Assembly (NCBI GenBank): GCA_016788885.1
Contig: JAEURX010000055.1
Span: 1-64,000, forward strand
Direction: 5' to 3'
From: Nitrospira sp.
GTDB lineage: Bacteria; Nitrospirota; Nitrospiria; Nitrospirales; Nitrospiraceae
DNA length: 64,000 nucleotides
Positions 32,086-58,600 of this stretch are shown here, piece by piece. Both the position numbers and the translations under genes were made by a program. The notes under the pieces are model-generated. The model was not told the origin of the DNA and did no database searches. It was given only the letters and a program-made list of their open reading frames with translations. Numbering within the stretch: position 1 is the stretch's first letter; the number at the start of each line of letters is the position of its first letter.

Positions 32086-32134
32086 TGGCGCACATGCCTT
32101 GCAGTCGTCCTTCCCCAAGACGGGAGTGATCCCG

Positions 32135-35100
32135 ATGGCTTCCACGCAACCAGTTCCACTGGACCGTCCCTCCTCGACCGCGTCACTCACACACGCCGCC
32201 GATGCGGCCATGGAAGCCAACCTGATGCTGCAGCGAGTCACGCTGCTCTATGAGGGTATGCCGGCGGCCCTCGCAGCCGGACTCGGCTGTGCGCTTGCGC
32301 TGGTCGTCGTCGATTGGCAGGTCCTCCCGCAGAACTGGCTGCTGGCGTGGCTGACCTACCATATGATCCTCTCCACCGGGCGATACCTCCTCGCACGATC
32401 ATTCAGAGCCACCAAACCGACCACCTCTACGAGCCAACGCTGGCACCGCGCATTTCTGACCGGAACGACTCTCGCCGGACTGGGATGGGGTGCGTCGGCG
32501 CTGATCCTGTTTCCCGAGTCTTCTCCCACGCATCAGGTGTTTCTGGCGTTCGTACTCGCCGGGGTCTCCGCCGGCGCCTCATCCACTCTGGCCGCGCGCT
32601 TCGATGCGTTTCTCTCGTTCGCCCTTCCGACTCTGACGCCGCTCATTCTGCGGTTTTTCTTCCTCAACCATGAGCACGCGCTGCCCATGGCGATCTGCAC
32701 CCTCTTGTTTTCCCTGCTCATGATCTACACCGCGTCCCGAACCTCGAACACCGTGCTGGAAACCCTTCGGCTGAAATATCACAACGCCCAACTCGTGGAT
32801 CAACTCGCCTCACAACTGGAGGAAGGGGAACAAACCGCGCTGCGTCTGAACGTCCATTCCGAACACTATCGCTTCATCATGGAGTATGCGCAGGACATCA
32901 TTTACCGCACCGACCGGAGCGGCCGCTTGACCTTCATCAATCCCGCCGTCATCCGCCTGCTGGGCTATCACGAGACCGAGATGCTCGGCCACCGCGCGCT
33001 GGACCTGGTACACCCGAGCTACCGCCGTACCACGGAACATTTCTATATCCGGCAATTCCTCCGGAAACTCCCCAGCACCTACTACGAATTTCCAGTGGTG
33101 ACCAGACGCCTTCAGACGCTGTGGGTCGGCCAAAACGTGCAGCTCCTGCTGCGCGACCAGGAGGTCATCGGATTTCAAGCGGTGATGCGTGACATCTCCG
33201 CACGCAAGCAAACCGAGGAAGCGTTGCGCTTCAGCCAGGAGCGCTATCGGGCGCTGTATGAGAGCAGCCCTGAAATGTTATTGACCGTCGACTCCAAAGG
33301 CAACCTCCTCACGGTCAATGCCACTGCCGCCGCCGAATTGGGGTATGACGCCGACGCATTGATCGGTCAGCCCGTCTCCCTCATCGTCCACGCAAACGAT
33401 CAGGCCAAGATGCAGCAGCATTTTGATGACTGTCTTGCCCGGCCTGGCGACGTGCTCCGTTGGGAGTTCCGGAAAATCCGGAAAGACGGAAGCCACATCT
33501 GGGTGAGAGAAGCCGCCCGCGCTGTTCGGAATCCGGACGGCCGATTCGACATCGTCATCGTGTGCGAAAACGTGACTGAACGAAAAGGCATGGAAGACGC
33601 CCTAACCCATACACGCCAGCTCCTCGAATCGATCGTCGAACACATCCCTCATATGGTCTTTCTGAAAGACGCGCTGGAGTTGCGATACGTCCAATTCAAC
33701 AAAGCGGGCGAGCAGCTGACCGGCCTCCCGCGTGAAGCGCTCCTGGGAAAGAACGATTTCGACTTCTTCCCTCGGGAACAGGCGGAATTTTTCACCGCGC
33801 GGGATCGCGAAGCGCTGACGGGCGGCGCCATGCTGGACATTCCGGCCGAACCGATCCAGACGAAGGATCACGGGCTGCGTTGGCTCCATACCAAGAAACT
33901 CCCTCTGTACGACCACGCCGGCGTGCCACGGTACCTTCTGGGCATCTCGGAAGACATCACGGACCAGAAGCAGCGACAGGAAATCGAACAGCTCCGCTTG
34001 GGGCAACTCGCGACGCAACAGACGGTCCTCCACAAACTGGCCGAAGACCCGGCCATTCATAGCGGACACCCGCAACAGGCGTTCCCCGCGATGACTGAAC
34101 ATGCCGCCGCCACCTTCGCCGTCGAACGGGCGAGCATCTGGCTTTTCGACGAGGCCCAAACAACGCTGATCCTTCAAGACCTGTTCGAAGCCACACCGAA
34201 ACGCCACCTGCGTGGGGCCACCCTGTCCACCGCCCAATACCCGGCATACCTGCGAGCACTGGAAACCGAACCCTATTCCCTGGCCGCCCATGCGGCCCAA
34301 ACCGACCCACGCACCTGCGAACTCAGCGCTTCCTATCTGGCTCCGCTCGGCATCGTCGCCATGCTGGATGCCCCGATCCGCCGTCACGGGCGCGTGGTCG
34401 GAGTCTTGTGCCTCGAGCATATCGGCCCGCCGAAATCCTGGACCAGCGAGGAAGAAGCGTTCGCTGCCTCCCTGGCCGCCATGGCCACCCTCACACTCGA
34501 AGCCGCCGACCGACGGCAGGCGCAAGAAGCCCTGGAGCAACATGTCCGTGAGCGCACCGGTGAGTTGCGACGCATGACCGCGCACCTGCAGACCATCATC
34601 GAAGAATCCCCGCTGGCAATGATCGAACTGGACCAGGCCGGACACGTCACGACCTGGAATGCCGCCGCCACCTCGCTGTTCGGATGGACCAAAGAGGAAG
34701 TCCTTGGACAGGAACTCCCGTACGTGCCGTCCGGACAAGAGCGGGAGTCCGATGAATTGTGGAATTCGGTCATGAGCGGGGGCGCGCCACGCGGCCTGGA
34801 GCTGCGCCGCAAACGAAAAGATGGCAGCCTCATCGACGTCAACATGTGGGGGACACTGCTTCAAGGCCCGGGCAGCCAGACAACCGGATCGATCGGATTT
34901 TTCATCGACGTGACTCAACACAAACAACTGGAAGAGCAACTCCGGCAAGCCCATAAGATGGAAGGCATCGGACGACTCGCCGGCGGCGTCGCCCACGACT
35001 TCAACAATCTTCTGACCGTGATCAACGGATGCGCCACGCTCGTCCTGGAACAGGTGCGGACTGAAGATCCGTTGCGCCGCTCGCTGACTGAAATCCTGAC

Positions 35101-36079
35101 TGCCGGTCAACGGGCGGCGGCACTGACCAGGCAACTCCTCGCCTTCAGCCGAAGACAAGTCCTCACCTTTCAGACCTTCAACTTGAACGAAGCCCTGGCC
35201 TCCATCGGTTCGATGATCGAGCGGCTGATCGGGGAAGATATCACCCTCATTCGGGATCTGACACCGAAACCGTGCATCATCCGCGCAGACCGGGGGCAAA
35301 TCGATCAAGTGATCTTGAATCTGGCGGTCAATGCAAAGGATGCCATGCCGCATGGCGGAACGTTGACGCTGGGGACGCGCATCCTGCTCATCACTGAGGA
35401 TTCGCCGGTGCCGCATCCCGCCCTGCTTCCTGGAAGCTACACACACCTGTCCGTCCGCGACTCGGGTATGGGCATGGACCGGGCCACCCTGTCGCATATC
35501 TTTGAGCCATTCTTCACGACCAAGGAAGAGGGCAAGGGAACTGGCCTGGGACTGGCGACGGTCTATGGGATCGTCAAACAAAGCCAGGGCTTCGTCTTTG
35601 CCGACAGCAACCCGGGCGAGGGCACTACGTTCGATATCTACTTTCCCTCAGCCGAGGCCCCTCAGCTGGCCGCCCCGCCACCTCCCGCCTCACGACCACA
35701 TTGCGGGCATGAAACCATTCTGCTGGTGGAAGACCAACAAGCCGTCAGGCTGTTACTCACCCACGCCCTGTCGGACTATGGGTACACCTTGCTGGAAGCC
35801 TCCAGCGGACAGGAAGCGTTGCGGCTCGTCGCCGCAGCGAAGACACCGATCCACATCCTGCTCACCGATGTGGTCATGCCACAGATGACGGGGCCGGCAT
35901 TGGCCGAACGCCTCCGTCAGCAATGGCCGGATCTGCGGGTGTTGTTCATGTCGGGGTATGCGGAAGGGAGTGTGCTACCGACATTTCTCGCCGAACCGGG
36001 CACCGGCTTCATTCAGAAGCCGTTCCTGCCCACGGAACTGGCGAGGAAATTGCGCGAACTGCTCGATCCGGCCAAGTGA
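32135..36079 (+). CDS. hybrid sensor histidine kinase with PAS/GAF array
   Basis: 1314 residues from ATG 32135 with GGGAG 8 bases upstream; a TTG at 32099 is open but weak. Layout: membrane region of about five to six helices (35-218), PAS (246-360), PAS (368-485), PAS/PAC with FDFFPREQ (492-610), GAF (638-798), PAS (817-930), HisKA with phosphoacceptor His954 in GGVAHDFNN, HATPase_c with [16 protein letters not shown] and GTGLGLATV (1045-1172), and a C-terminal receiver with Asp1245 ([19 protein letters not shown]). No DNA-binding output, so it signals by phosphorelay or through a partner. Confidence 0.92.
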
Positions 36080-44757: not shown

Positions 44758-45723
44758 TTACTTGGCAGGAGCCACCAACGGCATGAGCGGCAACTGCCTC
44801 GCATCCTTGTCCACCTTCAACAGTGCAATGGCACCACGGAGAGCGTCGGTCAAGGAGTGGGTGACGATCGGATACACCCCGTCGTTGTTATCCAACACCA
44901 TATCGAGAATGGCAGCTCCCGCCGGCGGAATCAGTTGCGTCTGCACGCCACGCGTGTGATTGGCCGGATTTCCGCTTTCCCACACATCATCCCAAATTTC
45001 GGCAATCGGATGGACCGCCGACACGTTGTTCGGTCCGGCGTTCACGAAATAAAACCGGACCCGTTCACCCGGTTTGGCATCCAGAAAATCGCCTCCTGCC
45101 TTGCTGTGCACGGGGTCATACCGGAAGACGGCTCCGTTGAAGACGACGTGCTGATATTTCCGGTCGAACATCCCGTCGACATCGTCGGGCTCTTTGAACA
45201 GTTCGCTCTGCACGAGTACATATTCGCGATCCGCCTTGGGCATGGCCTTGGGATCTTTCGGATCAACGATGATCGCCCCCATCATGCCACGCGCGATGTG
45301 CTGGATCATCGGAGACGCGCCGCAGTGATACGCAAATACGCCGGGCCACTTGGCCTTGAAACGATACTGCAGCGACTCGCCCGGCCGCACTTCTTTGTAG
45401 TGTTCCAAGAAATTGGTTTCCGCGGCGTGAAAATCCATCGAGTGGGGCCGACCGTTGGTTTCGGGATTCGTGAGCGAAAACACGACTTCATCGCCTTCCT
45501 GCACACGAATCACCGGACCGGGAAATTGCCCGTTGAAGGTCCAGGCATCGTATGTATGTCCTTCGCCGTCGATGACGAGCTTCGTTTCCACGGCGGTCAT
45601 GGAGACTTCGACGACTTTCGCGAACGCGGATTCGACCGGTTGCATGGCGAGGCCCGATAGCGCGGCCAGGCCCAGAACCGTGCGGATCACCGATTGACGA
45701 AAGCGGGTAGTGCGTACTGTCAT
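44758..45723 (-). CDS. nirK: copper-containing nitrite reductase
   Basis: 321 residues with a signal peptide (cleavage near AFA/K, residue 35), so periplasmic. Reduces nitrite to nitric oxide. Two cupredoxin domains. Type 1 copper ligands: His94, Cys134, His142, Met147. Type 2 ligands: His99, His133 and His289. Catalytic Asp97 and His238 are also present, so all active-site residues are kept. No C-terminal heme or extra cupredoxin, so this is a short form. AGGAGGA precedes the ATG. It is monocistronic, with a hairpin on one side and an inverted repeat on the other. Confidence 0.95.
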   Translation of the reverse strand: MTVRTTRFRQSVIRTVLGLAALSGLAMQPVESAFAKVVEVSMTAVETKLVIDGEGHTYDAWTFNGQFPGPVIRVQEGDEVVFSLTNPETNGRPHSMDFHAAETNFLEHYKEVRPGESLQYRFKAKWPGVFAYHCGASPMIQHIARGMMGAIIVDPKDPKAMPKADREYVLVQSELFKEPDDVDGMFDRKYQHVVFNGAVFRYDPVHSKAGGDFLDAKPGERVRFYFVNAGPNNVSAVHPIAEIWDDVWESGNPANHTRGVQTQLIPPAGAAILDMVLDNNDGVYPIVTHSLTDALRGAIALLKVDKDARQLPLMPLVAPAK

Positions 45724-49747: not shown

Positions 49748-50980
49748 TTACAGACTATCGAATGTCCACAGAATGCCCAGTAACACCAGGTGCTGATTGG
49801 GCGTCAAGCTAAGCACGCCGGGTTGCACCTCGCCGCGACGAAAAAATCCCCCGCCCGCTCCAGTCGATTCGTCCCATCGATGTTCGAGCCGCAGTGTGGT
49901 GTTGGTCCACTTATAGGGAATCCGATATTCAACCGTGGAGGTCACCGCCTTCACGAACTGTTCGGATCCGGTCCAGCGGCCATTCCGATCCCAGTAAAAT
50001 TCAGGACGCACCGCCAGAGCCCACGGTCCGGTCACATGCCAGCGTGCCACCACATTGCCACCCATGACAAACGCCCTCGGGTGTCCTGGCCGGTCGGCAA
50101 CGGCCTCGGTGCCGATGTCATACGAAGCCGCCAACGTCAGGTCCTCGCCCTTCCATTCGACGATATGGTTCGCGTAGAAGCGCCAGAATTCCAGCGCCGT
50201 GTTGGTCTGATCCGGCCCGCCATACACCGTCTGCGTCAAGGTGAGGTGCGGAGTCGCCTTGTAGGCCCACTGACCGCCATAACTCGGTTGGTCGTTTGGA
50301 TGTGACAGGTGATAATAGCCGTTGACGATGAACCCCGTGAGCGTCAGCGTGTCGGTGACCGGATATTTCGCATTGATGCCGAACATCATGTAGGGCGTGT
50401 TGTCGGCAATCCAGGACCGCGTGTAATTGACGTTGTCCTTGGCATAGAGCGACTCATACCCGATCAGGCTGTTGAAGAGGCCGGCCGTAATCGTAAGGCC
50501 CTTCCCGATCGGAGCGAGATACGACACATTCGCGCGATGGATATGCCGGAGCGTATCGGCCCCGCCGACCTCCCGTTCCCCCTGCAAAAATGCAAAGCGC
50601 TCAGAGTCGTAGCCTCCTTGGACGCCGAGTTCCATGCCCCAACGCGAAGACTCCTCCACATCCTTCCTGACATACGCCAGGGCCATATTCGGCGCGAATT
50701 CATTGTGCCGACTGGCCGTCGCACGATTTCTCCACAGATGGTTCTCCGGAAAATTGAAGTTCACCACGTATCCGACATCGAGATAGGCGCCGTAGTGCCA
50801 CAGCGAGGGGGCTTCACCGATAGCAGCCGCTGTATCCGTCGCCAAACCACTATCGGCAAACGCTGCTGGCGCAAAGGAGATTGACAAGAAGGCCGCCCAC
50901 CCCAACCACATCATGCTTCGGCGTGGAACATTCCGGGGAGTCGAATCGGCAGAGGCGTTCAAACAATGACGTGGCATCAT
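49748..50980 (-). CDS. outer-membrane beta-barrel/porin-like protein
   Basis: 410 residues from ATG 50980; a later start at 50914 (MMWLGWAAF) is possible. A signal peptide ends near AFAD. Strands alternate and carry many aromatic pairs (WHYGAYLDVGYVVNFNFPENH, TWEL/GMELGVQGGYDSERF, LTITAGLFNSLIGYESLYA); it ends WTFDSL. Layout resembles putative beta-barrel porin families (BBP2/PF07642 type). It is separated from the Ehr small subunit gene on the same strand by 133 bases. It could take up small solutes. Confidence 0.82.
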   Translation of the reverse strand: MMPRHCLNASADSTPRNVPRRSMMWLGWAAFLSISFAPAAFADSGLATDTAAAIGEAPSLWHYGAYLDVGYVVNFNFPENHLWRNRATASRHNEFAPNMALAYVRKDVEESSRWGMELGVQGGYDSERFAFLQGEREVGGADTLRHIHRANVSYLAPIGKGLTITAGLFNSLIGYESLYAKDNVNYTRSWIADNTPYMMFGINAKYPVTDTLTLTGFIVNGYYHLSHPNDQPSYGGQWAYKATPHLTLTQTVYGGPDQTNTALEFWRFYANHIVEWKGEDLTLAASYDIGTEAVADRPGHPRAFVMGGNVVARWHVTGPWALAVRPEFYWDRNGRWTGSEQFVKAVTSTVEYRIPYKWTNTTLRLEHRWDESTGAGGGFFRRGEVQPGVLSLTPNQHLVLLGILWTFDSL

Positions 50981-51113
50981 CTCACGTTCACAGACAGGCA
51001 CCCCTCACACATTGGAAGTGTGCGCGATCACATCATCGAGAACCAGGAGGAGATGTACACCGAATCGCGGAGAGAAGGGAATCGAAAAAGCACCCGGGCA
51101 GCGCCTCCGGCGA

Positions 51114-51635
51114 TTACGTGTCCGAATCGGCAGACGGCTGCCGGAGCTGTTTCAACACGGCCAAAATCTCCGCCGGACGTGGAGGACAGCCTGAAATACG
51201 CACATCAACGGGAATATGGCGGTCGACCGGCCCCGTCACCGCATAACTGCCTTTGAACTTCCCGCAATTGACGGCACAGTCTCCCAATGCAATGACGATC
51301 TTGGGATCCGCCGTGGCCTTGTACACGTCTTTCAAGGCTCGCTCCATGTTCACAGTCACGGGACCGGTTACGACCAGCGCATCGGCATGACGAGGAGATG
51401 CGACAATATGCACCCCGAACCGCTCCACGTCGTAAACCGGATTGGCCAGAGCATTCATTTCCATCTCACAGGCATTGCACGAGCCCGTATCGACCTCACG
51501 GATCGTCAGGGAGCGACGGAATGGTGCGGCCTTCTCAATGGCTTCGGGACTGACCGGCTCAGGCGGCCCCGCCGCGGCAGGGTGATCGCCCGTGACCACG
51601 CCGGTCTTCAGGCTTTTCTTGATGATCCGAAACAT
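51114..51635 (-). CDS. hyfI: Ehr/Hyf-like small subunit (HyfI/NuoB family)
   Basis: 173 residues. Carries one 4Fe-4S site of the NuoB/hydrogenase-small-subunit type with Cys53, Cys56 (GSCNACEMEMNAL), Cys120 (GDC) and Cys150 (SGCPPRP), plus an extra Cys124. The CxxC spacing is that of group 4 hydrogenases rather than the adjacent CC of complex I. Partner of the large subunit, and last of the six genes; the 76 bases before it hold a hairpin. No membrane segment, so it is a peripheral subunit facing the cytoplasm. Confidence 0.9.
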   Translation of the reverse strand: MFRIIKKSLKTGVVTGDHPAAAGPPEPVSPEAIEKAAPFRRSLTIREVDTGSCNACEMEMNALANPVYDVERFGVHIVASPRHADALVVTGPVTVNMERALKDVYKATADPKIVIALGDCAVNCGKFKGSYAVTGPVDRHIPVDVRISGCPPRPAEILAVLKQLRQPSADSDT

Positions 51636-51652
51636 GTGGCCTCCTTAGCCGT

Positions 51653-51700
51653 CAGCAATCAGTTTTCAGCTCACACCCGACTGCTGAAGGCTGATTCCTG
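51653..51700. repeat. imperfect inverted repeat between ehr large and small subunit genes
   Basis: 18-base arms CAGCAATCAGTTTTCAGC (51653-51670) and GCTGAAGGCTGATTCCTG (51683-51700) match at 15 of 18 positions, around a 12-base loop. It fills most of the 76-base gap. It could be a transcript-processing hairpin, an attenuator that alters subunit stoichiometry, or a member of an intergenic repeat family. Confidence 0.6.
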
Positions 51701-51711
51701 AAGGTTGTTTC

Positions 51712-53304
51712 TCACAGATCATTTCCTGCATAGGACAAATTAAAACTTTTATTGATCAACGGAAAATCCGGCACGATATTGCCAAGCGCGGCCCACTGGA
51801 TCGCCGGCCAATGCACGAAGGACGGATCTCGCACTTTACACCGGTGAATCCGCCCTGCCTCGCCGGCCATGACGACATACAGGATTTCGCCTCGCCACCC
51901 CTCGACCGCTGACAGCGCCCACTCACCCGCCTGTGGTGAGCGCGTCGCTTCCGCAATCAACGTGCCGGACGGAATGCACCGGCGAACCTCACGGATCAAA
52001 CGGACGGATTCATGGATCTCATCCATACGCACCCGCATCCTGGCGCGCACATCTCCGTAGCGGTAGAGCGCCACCTTCGGCTGGAGGACATCGTAAGCGG
52101 CAAACGGCCGGTCGCGACGAAGATCCCGATCGATACCGGACGCTCGGCCGACCACGCCCATCACCGCGTGGTCCCAAGCGATGCCTTCGGTGAGGATGCC
52201 CGTATTCTCCAGCCGTTCCGTCAGGGAGGCATTGGCGAACAGGATCTTTTCGAGACTCGAAAACTCCTGTTCAAGGGCGTTCAGTTCCACTTCCACCTGC
52301 GCAAGGTGCAGACCGCCGAGATCCACCGTGATGCCGCCGACGCAGATGACGCCACGCAGAAACCGCGACCCGGTCAGGCGATCGTTGAGCTGCATGAGGT
52401 GCTCTTTCATCCGCCCACAGTGCGCATGGGCCAACGCATAGGCCGTGTCGTTACAAATGGCGCCGACATCCCCGATGTGGTTGTGCAGGCGCTCCAGTTC
52501 CAGAAACAGCGTGCGCAGATATCGGGCGCGCGGCGGCGGTTCGATGCCCAGCAAGGTCTCCACAGCCTGGCAATAGGCCAGACTATGACCGACGCTCGTG
52601 TCACCGGAGACCCGTTCAGACAACGGGACCGCTTCGGTCAACGGCTGCTGCTCGAACAACTTCTCCAGGCCGCGATGTTTCCAGAAATGGCGCACTTCGA
52701 GTTGCATGATCGGTTCGCCGGCTACGGAAAATCGGAAATGACCCGGCTCGATGATGCCCGCATGGATCGGCCCCACAGGAACCTCGAAGACGCCTTCGCC
52801 ATGGATTGTCCGAAAGGCATATTCCCCCTGCACACGCCCAAGCACGCGGTCCCACGGAAAGTCTTTGGTGAGCGGATGCGCGCCCTTTGGCCAATGTTCA
52901 TGGCGAACGAGCCGCCGCAGATCCGGATGCCCGACCGGGATCAACCCAAACAGATCACGGATCTCCCGTTCGTACCATTTGGCCGCATGCAGGTGAGGCG
53001 TGATCGACGGGAACTCCCGCTCCTCGCCCTGCAGATCCACGGCAAGCAACAGCCAGTCCTTGTGCTCAGCCAACGTGAAGAGATAGCAGAGTTCGAACCG
53101 CGTCTCGCGCGGGCGATGGTCGACCGCCCAGAGCAACGACAACGATGCTCGCAGACTCGGACTTGTGTGCAGAAAATGTGCGACCGTCGGCAACGCCTGC
53201 TTCCTCAGTCTGAGCATCGGGACGCCATGAATGGCCGTGACCTCGATGACCGCCCCTGCGAATGCCGCCTGTATCTGCTCGACCGCCGAACGTGCGTCGA
53301 TCAT
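51712..53304 (-). CDS. hyfG: Ehr/Hyf-like large subunit without Ni-Fe ligands (HyfG/NuoCD family)
   Basis: 530 residues: an N-terminal NuoC-like part (WYEREIRDLFGLIPVGHPDLRRL, about 110-130) and a C-terminal NuoD/hydrogenase-large-like part (GPIHAGIIEPGHFRFSV, EVRHFWKHRGLEKLFE, SVGHSLAYCQAVE). The CxxC near 233 is SGDT (Ser233, Thr236), and the CxxC at the C-terminus is SYAG (Ser524, Gly527), so all four Ni-Fe ligands are gone. This matches energy-converting hydrogenase-related (Ehr) complexes. A quinone or other redox role in place of H2 chemistry is inferred. Confidence 0.92.
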   Translation of the reverse strand: MIDARSAVEQIQAAFAGAVIEVTAIHGVPMLRLRKQALPTVAHFLHTSPSLRASLSLLWAVDHRPRETRFELCYLFTLAEHKDWLLLAVDLQGEEREFPSITPHLHAAKWYEREIRDLFGLIPVGHPDLRRLVRHEHWPKGAHPLTKDFPWDRVLGRVQGEYAFRTIHGEGVFEVPVGPIHAGIIEPGHFRFSVAGEPIMQLEVRHFWKHRGLEKLFEQQPLTEAVPLSERVSGDTSVGHSLAYCQAVETLLGIEPPPRARYLRTLFLELERLHNHIGDVGAICNDTAYALAHAHCGRMKEHLMQLNDRLTGSRFLRGVICVGGITVDLGGLHLAQVEVELNALEQEFSSLEKILFANASLTERLENTGILTEGIAWDHAVMGVVGRASGIDRDLRRDRPFAAYDVLQPKVALYRYGDVRARMRVRMDEIHESVRLIREVRRCIPSGTLIAEATRSPQAGEWALSAVEGWRGEILYVVMAGEAGRIHRCKVRDPSFVHWPAIQWAALGNIVPDFPLINKSFNLSYAGNDL

Positions 53305-53308
53305 CCGA

Positions 53309-54841
53309 TTACCTCACCACAATCACGTTGACCGCCCTGGTCAGCAATGTGTGAATCGGCTCTGGAAGGACGAACCCGAACCCCAGCAAAGCCACGATCA
53401 TAATCATGAGGGGCACGTGGCCGACCGTCCAGACCTCTCCCCTCGCGATCCCGTCAGGCGCGGCACCCCAGACCATGGTCCCGATACGAAACATAAACCC
53501 ACCGAACAACACGACGGCAAAGAACAACAGCAAGGCCACGATGCCGAGGCTTCGCATCTCGTCGGAGATCGTCATGGTCACAAACCGCCCCACCTCCATC
53601 GTATCCGACGCAAAATCCTGCGCCGCCACGGCCGACACGACGAGTAACTCGCTGACAAAGGGGGAAAAGGGGGGTAAGCCGACCAGGGCACAGCCGGCCA
53701 CGAGCATCGCCACGGCGGTAATCGGCTGCACCTGCGCGACCCCACGCACCTCATTGATCTCCAGCGTCTCGAACCGGCGATGGACATTGCCCGCGACAAA
53801 AAACGCCAGCGCCTTGGCCACCGCATGATTGAGCAGGTGAAAGAGACCGGCGAACGTCCCCAACGGCCCGCCGACCCCGAAGCCGATCATGGCCAATCCC
53901 ATGTGCTCGATACTCGAATAAGCGAAGAGTCGCTTGTAATTATGTTGGATGAGAATAAACAGCGAGGCCACGACGAACGACAGCAACCCGAAGGTGAGGA
54001 GCAGGTTCCCGGTGTATGTCGGGGGTAGCGCCTGGTCGACCAACGCCTTGCTACGCAACACCGTATACACGGCCACCGTTTCCAACACTCCGGCCAACAT
54101 CGCCGCGATCGGTGCCGGCGCTTCGCTATACGCATCAGGCAACCAGGTATGCATGGGAACCAGGCCCACTTTCGTGCCATAACCGACGAGAATGAAAATA
54201 AACGCCAGCTTGAGCACATGGGGATCCAATTGGTTGGCCACGCCGATCAGCGCAGTCATATTGAGCGCCGAGCTCGCATCGCCAAGAACCCGCACAGAGG
54301 AGTAGTAGGTGAGCACCACGCCGAAGAGCGCGAGGGCGATGCCCACCGAACAGAGAATCAGATATTTCCAACCGGCTTCGAGGGATTCCCGCCTGCGGAA
54401 AAAGGCGATCAAGAAGGTCGTCGCCAACGTGGTCCCCTCCAGCGCAACCCACTGCACGCCCAGGCTGTTCGCCATCGTGACCGCCACCATCGCGAATAGG
54501 AACATGTGAAAGAGGAAAAAGAAGAGGCCGAGCCGTTTCGGCGCGATGACGCCCCGGGCAACCTGGTCATCCATGTACGACCACATGTAGAGCGAGCAGG
54601 ACAGGCCGACGGCGGTAATGATGACCAGAATAAAATCCGAGAGCGCATCCACGTAGACGACGGCGCCCAAGGTCGTGACCGACCCTTCCGCCAGCACCTG
54701 CCGCGTCAACACCGTCTCGGCGACGGCCAACGCCAGCATGGTGAACAAATTCACCAGGTGCAGAATCCGGGCACGCTGGACCACCAGACTGAACAGGCCG
54801 GCCACCACCGGCCCGGCCAGCAACACGATTACCGGCCACAT
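53309..54841 (-). CDS. hyfF: Hyf-like membrane subunit HyfF/NuoN-M family (proton channel)
   Basis: 510 residues, about 14 membrane helices. Antiporter-like subunit motifs are present: the Lys/Glu channel core (ALEGTTLATTFLIAFFRRRES, GYGTKVGLVPMHTWLPDAYSEAPAPIAAMLAGVLET, RLFAYSSIEHMGLAMIGFG, LFHLLNHAVAKALAFFVAGN). Family members pump H+ or Na+. Together with HyfB this gives two pumping subunits per complex. It starts 37 bases after hyfE. Confidence 0.93.
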   Translation of the reverse strand: MWPVIVLLAGPVVAGLFSLVVQRARILHLVNLFTMLALAVAETVLTRQVLAEGSVTTLGAVVYVDALSDFILVIITAVGLSCSLYMWSYMDDQVARGVIAPKRLGLFFFLFHMFLFAMVAVTMANSLGVQWVALEGTTLATTFLIAFFRRRESLEAGWKYLILCSVGIALALFGVVLTYYSSVRVLGDASSALNMTALIGVANQLDPHVLKLAFIFILVGYGTKVGLVPMHTWLPDAYSEAPAPIAAMLAGVLETVAVYTVLRSKALVDQALPPTYTGNLLLTFGLLSFVVASLFILIQHNYKRLFAYSSIEHMGLAMIGFGVGGPLGTFAGLFHLLNHAVAKALAFFVAGNVHRRFETLEINEVRGVAQVQPITAVAMLVAGCALVGLPPFSPFVSELLVVSAVAAQDFASDTMEVGRFVTMTISDEMRSLGIVALLLFFAVVLFGGFMFRIGTMVWGAAPDGIARGEVWTVGHVPLMIMIVALLGFGFVLPEPIHTLLTRAVNVIVVR

Positions 54842-54878
54842 GCGTCACCCACTCGCAGTTCGCACGTCATGGTCTCGA

Positions 54879-55544
54879 TCATTCCTTCAGCACCGTAAGC
54901 GTGCTCGTGTCGACGCTATCAAACGTGTCCTGCAACCGGTGGGTGTAAATCCCGACGATCAGGCCGGCCACCAACACGTCAAAAAAGATCCCCAATTCCA
55001 CGATCAACGGCATGCCGTAGGCGGCCGCGGTCGCCCCCAAAAACACCCCGTTCTCCATGACCAAGAAGCCGACCATCTGCGTAATCGCCTTCTGGCGGGC
55101 AATCATGGTGAAGAACCCGATCAGAATGATCGCCAGGGCAATGGCCAGCGAATCGCGCGTCAGCAGATACCCGAGCGGAATGATCGGTTGAGTGATAAAG
55201 AAAGCGAGGATCACCAATGCCCCGCAGAGCAGCAGGCCCGCGGGAATGTTGATGTGCATCCCCAACTCGCGAGAAACATTGAGCCGCTCGATGACCTTCC
55301 GGAGAATACGTGGCAACACGATCACTTTGATGACGATGGTCAGGGCCGCGGCGACATAAATGTGCGTGTGCCCGGTGAGGAACGCCACGAGCGCCGCAGT
55401 CGCCGCCAGGAAGGCGGATTGCAACGCAAAGAGATCCACACAAGCGGACAGTCGACGCTGCGCGACGATGGCAAAACAGCAGAGCAGCAGCAGGACGGAG
55501 CAGAGATCGACGAGTTGCGAGCCGACATGAGTCGAAGCCGACAC
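54879..55544 (-). CDS. hyfE: Hyf-like membrane subunit HyfE family
   Basis: 221 residues, about six membrane helices, of the HyfE/NuoK-containing family. Seen: LVDLCSVLLLLCCFAIVAQRR, HIYVAAALTIVIKVIVLPRIL, INIPAGLLLCGALVILAFF, ITQMVGFLVMENGVFLGATA and VELGIFFDVLVAGLIVGIY, matching the NuoK-type conserved Glu in the membrane. It is linked to hyfC (3 bases) and to hyfF. It probably joins the two proton-pumping subunits to the peripheral arm. Confidence 0.9.
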   Translation of the reverse strand: MSASTHVGSQLVDLCSVLLLLCCFAIVAQRRLSACVDLFALQSAFLAATAALVAFLTGHTHIYVAAALTIVIKVIVLPRILRKVIERLNVSRELGMHINIPAGLLLCGALVILAFFITQPIIPLGYLLTRDSLAIALAIILIGFFTMIARQKAITQMVGFLVMENGVFLGATAAAYGMPLIVELGIFFDVLVAGLIVGIYTHRLQDTFDSVDTSTLTVLKE

Positions 55545-55547
55545 GGC

Positions 55548-56501
55548 TTATCCTTTCAACGTGTAAAAGAACACCAGTGCCAGCAGCGCCAGAATGAACG
55601 CCGCTCCCAACATTTCCGGCACACGAAACAGCCGAAGCTTCGCAAACATCGATTCGATGACCCCGATTACCACGGCCAGCGCGGAGACCTTCACCAGATA
55701 CACCAGGAGGCCGACCGTGATGGCCGCTGGCGACAGACTCGTCGCAATCCCCCACGGCGCAAACACATTTACGATCAGCGTCAGAAAGACCACCAGCTTG
55801 ATACCCGCTGCCCACTCCATCAAGGCCAGGTAGCGGCCGGAATATTCGAGCAGCATGGCCTCATGGATCATCGTGAGCTCTAGGTGCGTCGCGGGATTAT
55901 CCACGGGAACGCGACCGGTCTCCGCCAGTGTCACGATGAACAAGGCGGCCAGCGCCATCAAATGCGCGGGCGGAGCGAGTGCGCCTTCCATCAATGCGGA
56001 CTGATGAACAATCGTGCTCAAATTCGTCGAGCCGGCGGTCAACGCAATAGCGAGAATAGACAACATCATGGCCGGCTCAGCCAGCGTGGCGACAATCGCT
56101 TCACGACTGCTGCCCATGCCACCGAACGCCGATCCGGCATCGAGCCCGGCCAAAATCAGAAAGAAGGTGCCCAGCGCCAACATATACACGAGCGCGATGA
56201 TGTTGCCGGCAAAGTTCAAGGGGGTGTGTGAGACAAAGACCGGGACCAACAGCCCTGCCGCCACCGTCGAGGCAAACACGATGTACGGCGCCGCGGTAAA
56301 AATCCAGGAGGTCGCCGAAGAGATCACCGGCTGCTTTTGAAACAATTTGGCCAGGTCGGCATAGGGCTGGAAGAGACTCGCGCCGCGGCGACATTGGAGA
56401 CGCGCCTTCACCTTTCGGATCAGGCCGACGACGAACGGGGACAACGCCAGCAACAAGGCAAGTTGCATGAGCACCACAGCGATGTGAAGAAGTGCCTGCA
56501 T
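55548..56501 (-). CDS. hyfC: Hyf-like membrane subunit HyfC/NuoH family
   Basis: 317 residues from ATG 56501; a GTG at 56513 is also in frame. About eight membrane helices. It carries the NuoH core: SPFVVGLIRKVKARLQCRRGAS, FQPYADLAKLFQKQPV, and ELTMIHEAMLLEYSGRYLALMEW with the conserved Glu residues that link redox chemistry to the membrane channel. VDNPATHLEL also fits. Forms the interface to the peripheral large/small subunits. Confidence 0.92.
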   Translation of the reverse strand: MQALLHIAVVLMQLALLLALSPFVVGLIRKVKARLQCRRGASLFQPYADLAKLFQKQPVISSATSWIFTAAPYIVFASTVAAGLLVPVFVSHTPLNFAGNIIALVYMLALGTFFLILAGLDAGSAFGGMGSSREAIVATLAEPAMMLSILAIALTAGSTNLSTIVHQSALMEGALAPPAHLMALAALFIVTLAETGRVPVDNPATHLELTMIHEAMLLEYSGRYLALMEWAAGIKLVVFLTLIVNVFAPWGIATSLSPAAITVGLLVYLVKVSALAVVIGVIESMFAKLRLFRVPEMLGAAFILALLALVFFYTLKG

Positions 56502-56572
56502 GTCTCTTGTCACTCAATGTTCAACGATCGAACGGGTCGGCACGACGCCCCTCTCCATTCCGCGACGGTTCT

Positions 56573-58600
56573 CTATCCGGCCCACAACAGCAACAGGACC
56601 AGGGTCAGGAAAATATAGCTGAGATAGACATGAAGGCTGCCGGCTTGAATCACACGGAGACGGTCGGCCAACGCGAGCAGCCGTCGGACGACCGGCTCAT
56701 AGAGATAGGTTTCAAACATTGGGTGAATATGCGACTCGAACCGCTGGTGCTTGATGAAGTACTTCGACTGTTCCAGAAACTCTCGTTCGAGCTTCACCGC
56801 CGGCTGATAGATGGTTTCGAACACCTGCTTGATGGGTTGCGCGAATCCCATCGCGCTATATTCCATGCGCGGCGTCAGGTTCAGCCCGCAGCCCCAGGTC
56901 TTGTAGTACCGTGCACGCAGGCCCTTTCCGCATAGACGGGCAATCAGCACCCCCAACCCGCCGGCCCCCACCAGCAGCACGGCGAGCACCGGCGTTGAGA
57001 TGCTGGAAAATTCCACCGTCACGGGTGCCACGACCCAACCGTCCAGTGCCAGCACCTGCACGCTGATGGACACCCCCGTCAGCAGCGCGGTCACGCGATC
57101 CAACAGGGGGATGACCAGCATGGGCGCCAATCCCAGCACGACGCAGGCCCCCGCCAGAAAACCCATGCCCGCTCGCATCGACCAGGGGACCTCCTTCGCT
57201 CGTCGGGCCTGGGGACTTCGTGGCTGCGCCAGGAATGACAATCCGAAGGCTTTCGCAAAACACGCCAGCGCCAGCGCGCCGGTCAGGGCCAGCATTGCGG
57301 CGGCAATCGGCAACATGAGTTTCAGGAGCAGGGGCGGCAGTTGAACGCTGAGGAAGAGGCTCTGAAACACCAGCCATTCACTGACGAATCCGTTCGTGGG
57401 CGGCAGCGCAGCAATGGACACAGCCCCGATCAGGAAACAAGCACCCGTCCAGGGCATGCGTCGAAGCAAGCCTCCGTACTCCTCGATGTTTCTGGTGTGC
57501 GTGGAGAACTGCAGCGCTCCGGCGCCGAAGAACAGCAATGCTTTGAACGTCGCGTGATTGATCGTGTGGTACAGACCGGCCAGCAACCCGAGCGCCGCCA
57601 GTTCCTGCAATCCATAGGTGTGGAAGATCATGCCGGCACCGATCCCCAACAGAATGATGCCGATGTTTTCCACGCTGTGAAACGCCAGCAAGCCCTTCAG
57701 GTCATGCTCCATCAACGCATACATGACGCCCAACAGCGCCGACACCGTGCCGGCGATCAGAATCGTCACGCCCCACCACCAGGGGAATTCTCCTCCCATG
57801 AAATCGAAGTAGACCCGGATCAACCCATAGATGGCAGTTTTGATCATGACGCCGGACATCACCCCCGAGATGTGAGAGGGTGCAGCGGGATGCGCGTAGG
57901 GCAGCCAGACATGCAGCGGCACAATACCGGCCTTCGCGCCGAATCCGATCAAGGCTGCGAAGAAGGCCATCGATCGTACTCCGTCCGGAATCGCCCGGGC
58001 CGGGTGGCGAAACGCCTCGAACGAGAAGGACGCAGCTTCTCGCGCAAAGATTAAAAAGGTCAGCATGATGAAGGCGGTGCCGACGTGCGTCATGATCAAA
58101 TAGAACAGCCCGGCCTCGCGGACGCCAGGCTTCTCATGCTCGGTGACCACCAAGAGGTAGGACAACAGGGACATGATTTCCCAGAGAATCAGGAAGAAGA
58201 ACCCGTTGTCGGCCAGGACCACCAACGTCATGGACAGCAAGAAGCCGTTGAGGAGGGAGCCCAACACTCCCACCGAGATCCGGCCGGAGAACTCTTCCAT
58301 GTAGCCGAAGGCATAGATCGACGCGGGAAGTGCCACCAGTGAAATCGTGAGGACGAAGAAGGCCGCGAGCGGATCGAGACGCAACGCACAGGTCAGATGT
58401 GGAATGTTGGAGGAGAGCGACAAGGACAGAGGGGCCGTGGCCAAGAGTCCGGCCAGGCCCAGAGCAATGCCCATCACGCTCGCAGCGGCCGCGAAGCCAT
58501 GAGCGAGAAGATTCTGACGATGCGGAACGGTGGTGCAGAGGGGCAGCAGCCCCCCCAGGAGGTAACAGGCGAGAAGAACGGTCAAGAGGGCGGTCATCAC
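56573..58600 (-). CDS. hyfB: Hyf-like membrane subunit HyfB/NuoL family
   Basis: 675 residues, about 16 membrane helices plus a C-terminal lateral part. Antiporter core: LWEIMSLLSYLLVVTEHEK, GFGAKAGIVPLHVWLPYAHPAAPSHISGVMSGVMIKTAIYG, KGLLAFHSVENIGIILLGIG, LYHTINHATFKALLFFGAG. First gene of the six-gene operon; the promoter should lie in 58601-58848. In hydrogenase-4 the same order (hyfB, C, then E, F, G, I) occurs but with the ferredoxin-like HyfA and HyfH, neither of which is present in this window. Confidence 0.93.
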   Translation of the reverse strand: MMTALLTVLLACYLLGGLLPLCTTVPHRQNLLAHGFAAAASVMGIALGLAGLLATAPLSLSLSSNIPHLTCALRLDPLAAFFVLTISLVALPASIYAFGYMEEFSGRISVGVLGSLLNGFLLSMTLVVLADNGFFFLILWEIMSLLSYLLVVTEHEKPGVREAGLFYLIMTHVGTAFIMLTFLIFAREAASFSFEAFRHPARAIPDGVRSMAFFAALIGFGAKAGIVPLHVWLPYAHPAAPSHISGVMSGVMIKTAIYGLIRVYFDFMGGEFPWWWGVTILIAGTVSALLGVMYALMEHDLKGLLAFHSVENIGIILLGIGAGMIFHTYGLQELAALGLLAGLYHTINHATFKALLFFGAGALQFSTHTRNIEEYGGLLRRMPWTGACFLIGAVSIAALPPTNGFVSEWLVFQSLFLSVQLPPLLLKLMLPIAAAMLALTGALALACFAKAFGLSFLAQPRSPQARRAKEVPWSMRAGMGFLAGACVVLGLAPMLVIPLLDRVTALLTGVSISVQVLALDGWVVAPVTVEFSSISTPVLAVLLVGAGGLGVLIARLCGKGLRARYYKTWGCGLNLTPRMEYSAMGFAQPIKQVFETIYQPAVKLEREFLEQSKYFIKHQRFESHIHPMFETYLYEPVVRRLLALADRLRVIQAGSLHVYLSYIFLTLVLLLLWAG

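Follow-up and report, generated by a model that had tools for sequence, protein, structure and literature searches.

An Ehr complex of Nitrospira: a hydrogenase-4-like membrane assembly without Ni-Fe ligands, possibly a ferredoxin-linked ion pump

We analysed a stretch of 64,000 nucleotides (hereafter the window) from Nitrospira sp., assembly GCA_016788885.1, contig JAEURX010000055.1 (C55 in our numbering), in a genome of 3.92 Mb that is 99.78% complete. The window holds an operon for an Ech-hydrogenase-related (Ehr) complex. Six complete open reading frames (ORFs), with 0 internal stops, follow one another on the minus strand from 58600 down to 51114 as HyfB, HyfC, HyfE, HyfF, HyfG and HyfI, with intergenic gaps of 59, 3, 37, 4 and 76 bases (Table 1). 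Pfam and NCBIfam searches found Proton_antipo_M in both HyfB and HyfF and Oxidored_q6 in HyfI, and the subunit set that defines Ehr is present in this single operon. An earlier note on this DNA had described six Hyf-type genes on one strand with gaps of 3 to 76 bases, a small subunit with one 4Fe-4S site and no HyfA- or HyfH-like ferredoxin subunit. Our ORF and domain searches agree: HyfI carries a single set of ligands (C53, C56, C120 and C150) for the cluster N2-type [4Fe-4S] site of its homologue NuoB, and no ORF in the window contains a ferredoxin-type motif. The CxxC spacing of the HyfI ligands is hydrogenase-like and differs from the CC of complex I NuoB; a tandem CC (GSPNCCE) like that of NuoB stands in place of CxxC in the HyfI of a Rokuibacteriota locus (L178).

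Table 1. Genes and motifs of the Ehr operon, in window coordinates.
Feature	Position	Strand	Basis or remark
HyfB-like (NuoL-type) antiporter subunit, 675 aa	56573..58600	minus	NCBIfam hydrogenase 4 subunit B, 734.8 bits vs cut-off 667
HyfC-like (NuoH-type) membrane subunit, 321 aa	55548..56513	minus	Pfam NADHdh 8.8e-51
HyfE-like (NuoK-containing) membrane subunit, 221 aa	54879..55544	minus	NCBIfam hydrogenase 4 membrane subunit 3.3e-29, under family cut-off
HyfF-like (NuoM/N-type) antiporter subunit, 510 aa	53309..54841	minus	Proton_antipo_M 8.1e-56; hydrogenase 4 subunit F 1.5e-132
HyfG-like large subunit, NuoC and NuoD parts, without Ni-Fe ligands, 530 aa	51712..53304	minus	Complex1_30kDa and Complex1_49kDa (and weak NiFeSe_Hases)
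HyfI-like small subunit, 173 aa, one [4Fe-4S] site, without ferredoxin domain	51114..51635	minus	Oxidored_q6 2.8e-32
S233-G-D-T236, former first CxxC of the Ni-Fe site in HyfG	52597..52608	minus	Alignment with HycE
S524-Y-A-G527, former second CxxC in HyfG, within NKSFNLSYAGND	51724..51735	minus	Alignment with HycE
HAGIIEPGHFRF loop, HyfG residues 181-192	52729..52764	minus	Hydrogenase-type Glu present; Ile at complex I quinone His
C53-N-A-C56, first two cluster ligands of HyfI	51468..51479	minus	C120 at 51276-51278, C150 at 51186-51188

Aligned with HycE of Escherichia coli (7z0s_E, E 4.5e-80), HyfG reads VSGDTS for VCGICG and NLSYAG for DPCYSC. All four Cys of the Ni-Fe site are replaced, by S233/T236 and S524/G527, which is what the earlier note had given, exact to the residue. 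It had also named a sequencing error as something that would refute its reading; since the same motifs recur in every full-length orthologue that was read, in the genus as well as the family, such an error is excluded. Two hallmarks of group 4 [NiFe] hydrogenases, the pair of CxxC motifs and maturation by HypD, are both lacking, as HypD has no match in the window genome. The Fe(CN)2CO moiety in that cofactor depends on HypD, and a genome without HypD cannot make the Ni-Fe cofactor; among the 18 Ehr-bearing genomes of the genus, one has HypD and the other 17 have none. Earlier Nitrospira papers and annotations label the complex a formate hydrogenlyase or group 4 [NiFe] hydrogenase, for which the gene set hyfBCEFGI and the nearest solved relative, E. 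coli formate hydrogenlyase, can be invoked. The predicted structure of HyfG is likewise closest to HycE (TM-score 0.88), in a model whose residues 163-211 and 508-530, holding most of the pocket at the former Ni-Fe site, have pLDDT <50 and a geometry that is unusable. However, with every ligand replaced in all orthologues read, no HypD, and a position outside the branch of E. coli HyfG and HycE, the sequence already refutes a hydrogenase unless the cofactor is of an entirely new kind, and we regard its chance as practically nil.

A second possibility is a complex I-like enzyme that reduces or oxidises quinone at the HyfG/HyfC interface, in line with the homology to NuoC, NuoD, NuoB and NuoH, the shared fold, and the retention in HyfC of NuoH E157, D213 and E220. 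Complex I is recognised by a quinone-binding His and Tyr in NuoD (His38 and Tyr87 in Thermus Nqo4). In a gapless alignment with Aquifex NuoCD (7q5y), the column of the quinone His (of GTHG) holds Ile185 and that of the quinone Tyr holds Gly234, so that HyfG has neither; its EPGHF loop retains the hydrogenase-type Glu. There is also no upstream wire, and we consider a quinone enzyme improbable.

Phylogeny supports the earlier note's naming of the complex as Ehr-type and not a hydrogenase. The trees were built by a quick method, and SH-aLRT is their sole measure of support. One of 103 large subunits separates E. coli HyfG/HycE from a single group (99) that unites Ehr with its Ni-Fe-bearing relatives, and it places the window in a Nitrospiria branch of 18 rows (support 100). 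In a thinned tree all 59 Ehr rows make up one branch (support 96), which fits a single loss of the Ni-Fe ligands. Close orthologues, including that of N. moscoviensis (L172, HyfG 71% identical), group the window with Nitrospira, and its identity as an Ehr complex is, in our judgement, close to certain. A separate partial loss is seen in Desulfosporosinus (L150, SxxC/SxxC), which is placed among the Ni-Fe rows. An Omnitrophota genome (L181) has an intermediate large subunit, CxxA/SxxA, in which part of the Cys ligands is left. The Ehr gene occurs in 18 of 21 genomes of the genus that are >=95% complete, the 17 others being 78-89% identical to the window, and a HyfG match <1e-45 was found in 152 of 246 sampled genomes of the phylum, some with intact Ni-Fe motifs (e.g. 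G131/L080).

What replaced the Ni-Fe site is itself a conserved pocket, with the strict motif SGDT/S ... NKSFNxSYxGxD. Position 233 is Ser in 80, position 524 Ser in 81 and position 527 Gly in 78 of 81 sequences from more than ten phyla, all of them members in which the Cys set is incomplete or absent. Once the columns that had served to search for or define these sequences are excluded, the mean conservation of pocket columns is 0.80, versus 0.53 elsewhere in the NuoD part (p 3e-7). This statistic omits the loop, whose conservation among the matches of the named-genome scan comes partly by selection, given that the scan used patterns from IEPGHFRF and PVGPxHAG. Between Ni-Fe relatives and Ehr, position 235 changes from Val/Ala to Asp (44/51 thinned sequences) and position 522 from Glu to Asn (42/51). 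In more than ten phyla the former Ni-Fe site thus ranks with the most conserved regions of HyfG, a pattern that marks it as rebuilt and not decayed. Two loci (L075 and L084) carry two complete or near-complete Ehr operons in tandem, with different pocket subtypes (SGTDS/SGTSS and SGDTT). Against three congeners, the ratio of nonsynonymous to synonymous substitution rates (dN/dS) is 0.03-0.12 in all six genes, indicating purifying selection, with HyfI among the most constrained (0.05-0.07). These values bear on the proposal, stated for Geobacter Ehr in PMC13194489, that the complex is a hydrogenase vestige under relaxed selection. The lost catalytic ligands and the absence of the gene from three of the 21 genomes would suit a vestige, but neither the pocket drift nor the frequent frameshifts that it calls for were seen in these genes. 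With low dN/dS, a pocket more conserved than its surroundings and a gene that 18 of 21 genomes and more than ten phyla have retained, a vestige seems very improbable.

The membrane arm appears equipped for transport. By alignment with E. coli, HyfB retains the equivalents of NuoL E144, K229 and K342 and a Glu at the position in transmembrane helix 12, HyfF retains NuoM E144, K234 and E407, and HyfC has Ala/His at E216/E218 beside the three NuoH residues named above. The Ni-Fe relatives share most of these residues, and so does a cofactor-free branch described below, where one of five checked members has Lys at NuoM E407. Since nearly all checked charged residues of the complex I proton path are kept, Ehr probably translocates ions across the membrane. 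The earlier note had proposed a redox-fed pump with two pumping subunits. Its pump is favoured by the intact ion path; its electron drive can be no more than tentative, as cofactor-free relatives keep the pocket. The two pumping subunits hold for the window, while the number is not fixed across Nitrospiria, many of which have a third antiporter-like subunit. There, a seventh Ehr gene encodes a second HyfF-like antiporter (~47% to HyfF; L063-L067, L088, L089, L096, L097, L042), which parallels the 2M complex I of Nitrospira; the genus of the window is without it, and L041 and L043 seem to keep just the other copy.

Redox parts, by comparison, form a graded series. Most HyfI proteins of the Ni-Fe type have one or two extra ferredoxin-type cluster motifs. 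Among Ehr, Bacillota have two, Acidobacteriota and Verrucomicrobiota mostly one, and Nitrospirota, Rokuibacteriota and Omnitrophota 0, so that the series runs from two extra clusters to one, to none (the window, with one cluster left) and on to the loss of the cluster ligands themselves. This last state belongs to a branch with the gene order I-B-C-E-F-G, mostly from Candidate Phyla Radiation (CPR) bacteria and mostly from metagenome bins (L153, L158, L163, L174, L182, L191, L193-L196), which is the nearest group to the 34-row branch of the window (support 84). In all ten of its loci with a readable HyfI the ligand set is lost and replaced by Asp, Thr, Ser, Glu, Gly or Asn, and the SGD and NKS[FL]NLSY[ST]G motifs persist in most of these loci. 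Judged from their sequences, the complexes of this branch are without a recognisable redox cofactor. An approximately unbiased test of one cofactor-free clade had wrongly placed rows with unknown HyfI state outside that clade, and its rejection is not used here. On the same strand, the Ehr operon begins 110-260 bp after atpC in L182, L195 and L196 and follows atpD in L158, with a masked stretch between. The genes atpG-atpD (and atpC where readable) precede Ehr in these four loci, with identities Pfam-checked for L182 and L195; atp genes lie nearby in L163, and neighbour clustering found none at the other named loci. The lack of Ni-Fe cysteines in CPR Ehr has been published (PMC7304191); mention of the HyfI ligand loss or the ATP-synthase linkage was not found in the literature searched, as far as its excerpts go, which is no proof of novelty.

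These distant relatives without the last cluster suggest that at least some Ehr move ions without electron transfer. The complex could be a non-redox transporter, exchanging or pumping H+/Na+ in the manner of an Mrp-type antiporter, with the HyfG pocket as a ligand- or ion-binding gate and the [4Fe-4S] cluster of the window as a structural element or sensor. It would accommodate the stepwise disappearance of redox parts from complexes whose pocket and ion path persist, the missing ligand set in all ten readable loci, the ATP-synthase genes ahead of four cofactor-free operons (and near a fifth), and the proximity of that branch to the window's own. On the other hand, the window branch keeps four of four cluster Cys, wired Ehr exist in other phyla, and neither a strictly conserved HyfG pocket nor HyfI is obviously needed by a pure antiporter. 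The MrpE-type subunit (PF01899) that marks Mrp-type antiporters is absent from the window genome; asking whether Mrp substitutes for Ehr, we found MnhE in 2 of the 18 genomes of the genus that have Ehr and in 1 of the 3 that lack it, a comparison of few genomes. We regard the non-redox transporter as a real but lesser possibility. Slightly less probable still is the broader idea that Ehr as a class, the window included, are complex I-like ion transporters no longer run by electrons, their Ni-Fe site turned into a ligand or ion pocket, their wires lost stepwise, and the CPR branch left without a redox cofactor.

We slightly favour a single-cluster redox pump over the non-redox transporter. In this model a soluble carrier of low potential, most plausibly ferredoxin, would dock on HyfI, and electrons would be exchanged through its single cluster with a substrate in the pocket. 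The joint conservation of HyfC and HyfG-HyfI suggests that ion movement across the membrane is coupled, via HyfC, to what happens in the HyfG pocket, be it a reaction or binding. Ehr might in this way make an ion-motive force or, in reverse, feed ferredoxin-dependent CO2-fixing enzymes. The link to ferredoxin is favoured because the window branch keeps its cluster and because genes for 2-oxoacid:ferredoxin oxidoreductase (OFOR) adjoin Ehr in relatives; Acidobacteriota and Bacillota Ehr with N-terminal ferredoxin-type clusters in HyfI also count for it. One Nitrospiria genome (G152; L065/L109) has, in the orientation of HyfB and 148 bp ahead of it, a complete OFOR made up of a fused alpha/gamma subunit, a thiamine pyrophosphate (TPP)-binding beta subunit and a PF02552 subunit, and in another (G252) a PF02552 gene lies 41 bp upstream of HyfB. 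A shorter set, comprising PF02552 proteins, an OFOR remnant without TPP domain and a carboxypeptidase-regulatory-like domain protein, precedes HyfB in one genome of the window's genus (G014) and in genera g10, g11 and g13. A sigma-54 regulator and its histidine kinase often adjoin the OFOR-type genes upstream of Ehr.

Several observations count against a ferredoxin-linked redox pump. No electron donor or acceptor gene is encoded beside the window operon, the OFOR-type upstream genes are absent from the window and most of its genus, and the OFOR linked in f1 genera is without TPP parts. Moreover, the three of 21 genomes without Ehr imply that it is not the sole route to reduced ferredoxin, and an electron donor cannot be obligatory across Ehr, because relatives with the same pocket and ion path have lost the last [4Fe-4S] ligands. 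Taken as a whole, the statement that this Ehr is a ferredoxin-linked single-cluster redox pump acting via a rebuilt pocket is therefore put forward tentatively, as one that may well prove wrong.

The PF02552 protein upstream of Ehr (CO dehydrogenase beta/acetyl-CoA synthase epsilon-like; L106:12471-15806, L104, L107 and L028) is 81-89% identical across genera and adjoins a fast-diverging OFOR remnant without TPP domain. In Ca. N. nitrosa the complex was reported to adjoin CO dehydrogenase (PMC5596200), and PF02552, named after that enzyme, may be the source of the report. Upstream of HyfB the window encodes an Lcl domain protein, a 240 aa protein and an M50 protease. A BBP2-type porin gene (49748-51001, minus) lies 112 bp downstream of HyfI and adjoins it in some, not all, genomes of the genus. 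Further off are a small multicopper-oxidase-like protein of 321 aa with Cu-oxidase_2/3 domains (44758-45723, minus) and a hybrid histidine kinase of 1326 aa with at least four PAS domains and GAF and receiver domains (32099-36079, plus). A search for a sigma-54 promoter upstream of HyfB gave nothing (4 of 54 loci match versus 2.4 in shuffles), and the kdp genes that several congeneric genomes carry downstream were judged local synteny.

The question of what Ehr does concerns nitrifiers, Geobacter, soil Acidobacteriota and CPR bacteria alike. If the single-cluster redox reading is true, Ehr would be a candidate ferredoxin supply for the CO2-fixing cycle of Nitrospira; how ferredoxin is reduced for its reductive tricarboxylic acid cycle is unsettled, and 2M complex I has been proposed (PMC6606698). 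A redox-free reading, if true, would make Ehr a complex I-like machine without electrons, bearing on how chemistry and pumping are coupled in complex I. The relatives from Ni-Fe-bearing to cofactor-free are a natural variant series that makes the redox question testable.

Compared with known systems, the window shares the HyfG/HycE fold, domain order and membrane subunits with E. coli formate hydrogenlyase HycBCDEFG (7z0s) and hydrogenase-4, which differ in having a Ni-Fe site, the HycB/HycF ferredoxin subunits and a C-terminal extension after the second CxxC. The Ni-Fe relatives in Bacillota, Chloroflexota and Planctomycetota (L137-L140, L143, L145, L157, L189 and others) have the same B-C-E-F-G-I order and the same HAGIIEPGHFRF and NKSF motifs, but their CxxC...CxxC is intact and mostly one or two extra ferredoxin-type motifs are fused to HyfI. 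CPR Ehr (PMC7304191) resembles the window in its pocket, its ion-path residues and the lack of Ni-Fe ligands, and differs in having HyfI first in the operon, lost cluster ligands, and ATP-synthase genes upstream in four loci. The Geobacter complex, likened by description only, is also an Ech-related membrane complex without Ni-Fe ligands, with seven loci; in G. sulfurreducens (GSU0739-45) it is more abundant in formate-grown cells than with hydrogen (PMC7894505). Among nitrifiers, Ehr occurs in about half of Nitrospirales genomes with its function unsolved, H2 giving no induction in N. moscoviensis (PMC12342949); hot-spring comammox Nitrospira carry it (PMC10284858), and an acid-tolerant comammox organism raises hyfBCEF under acid (PMC13109103). 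The same complex is named hyfBCEFGI in PMC5596200 and a group 4 hydrogenase in PMC12542776. The conserved pocket, the loss of the quinone site and the OFOR neighbours are not discussed in the excerpts of this Nitrospirales literature. With the gene set, lineage and Ni-Fe ligand loss reported there (PMC12342949; PMC10284858) identical to those of the window, the feature is the already known Ehr complex of Nitrospirales, and the window adds one more orthologue to it.

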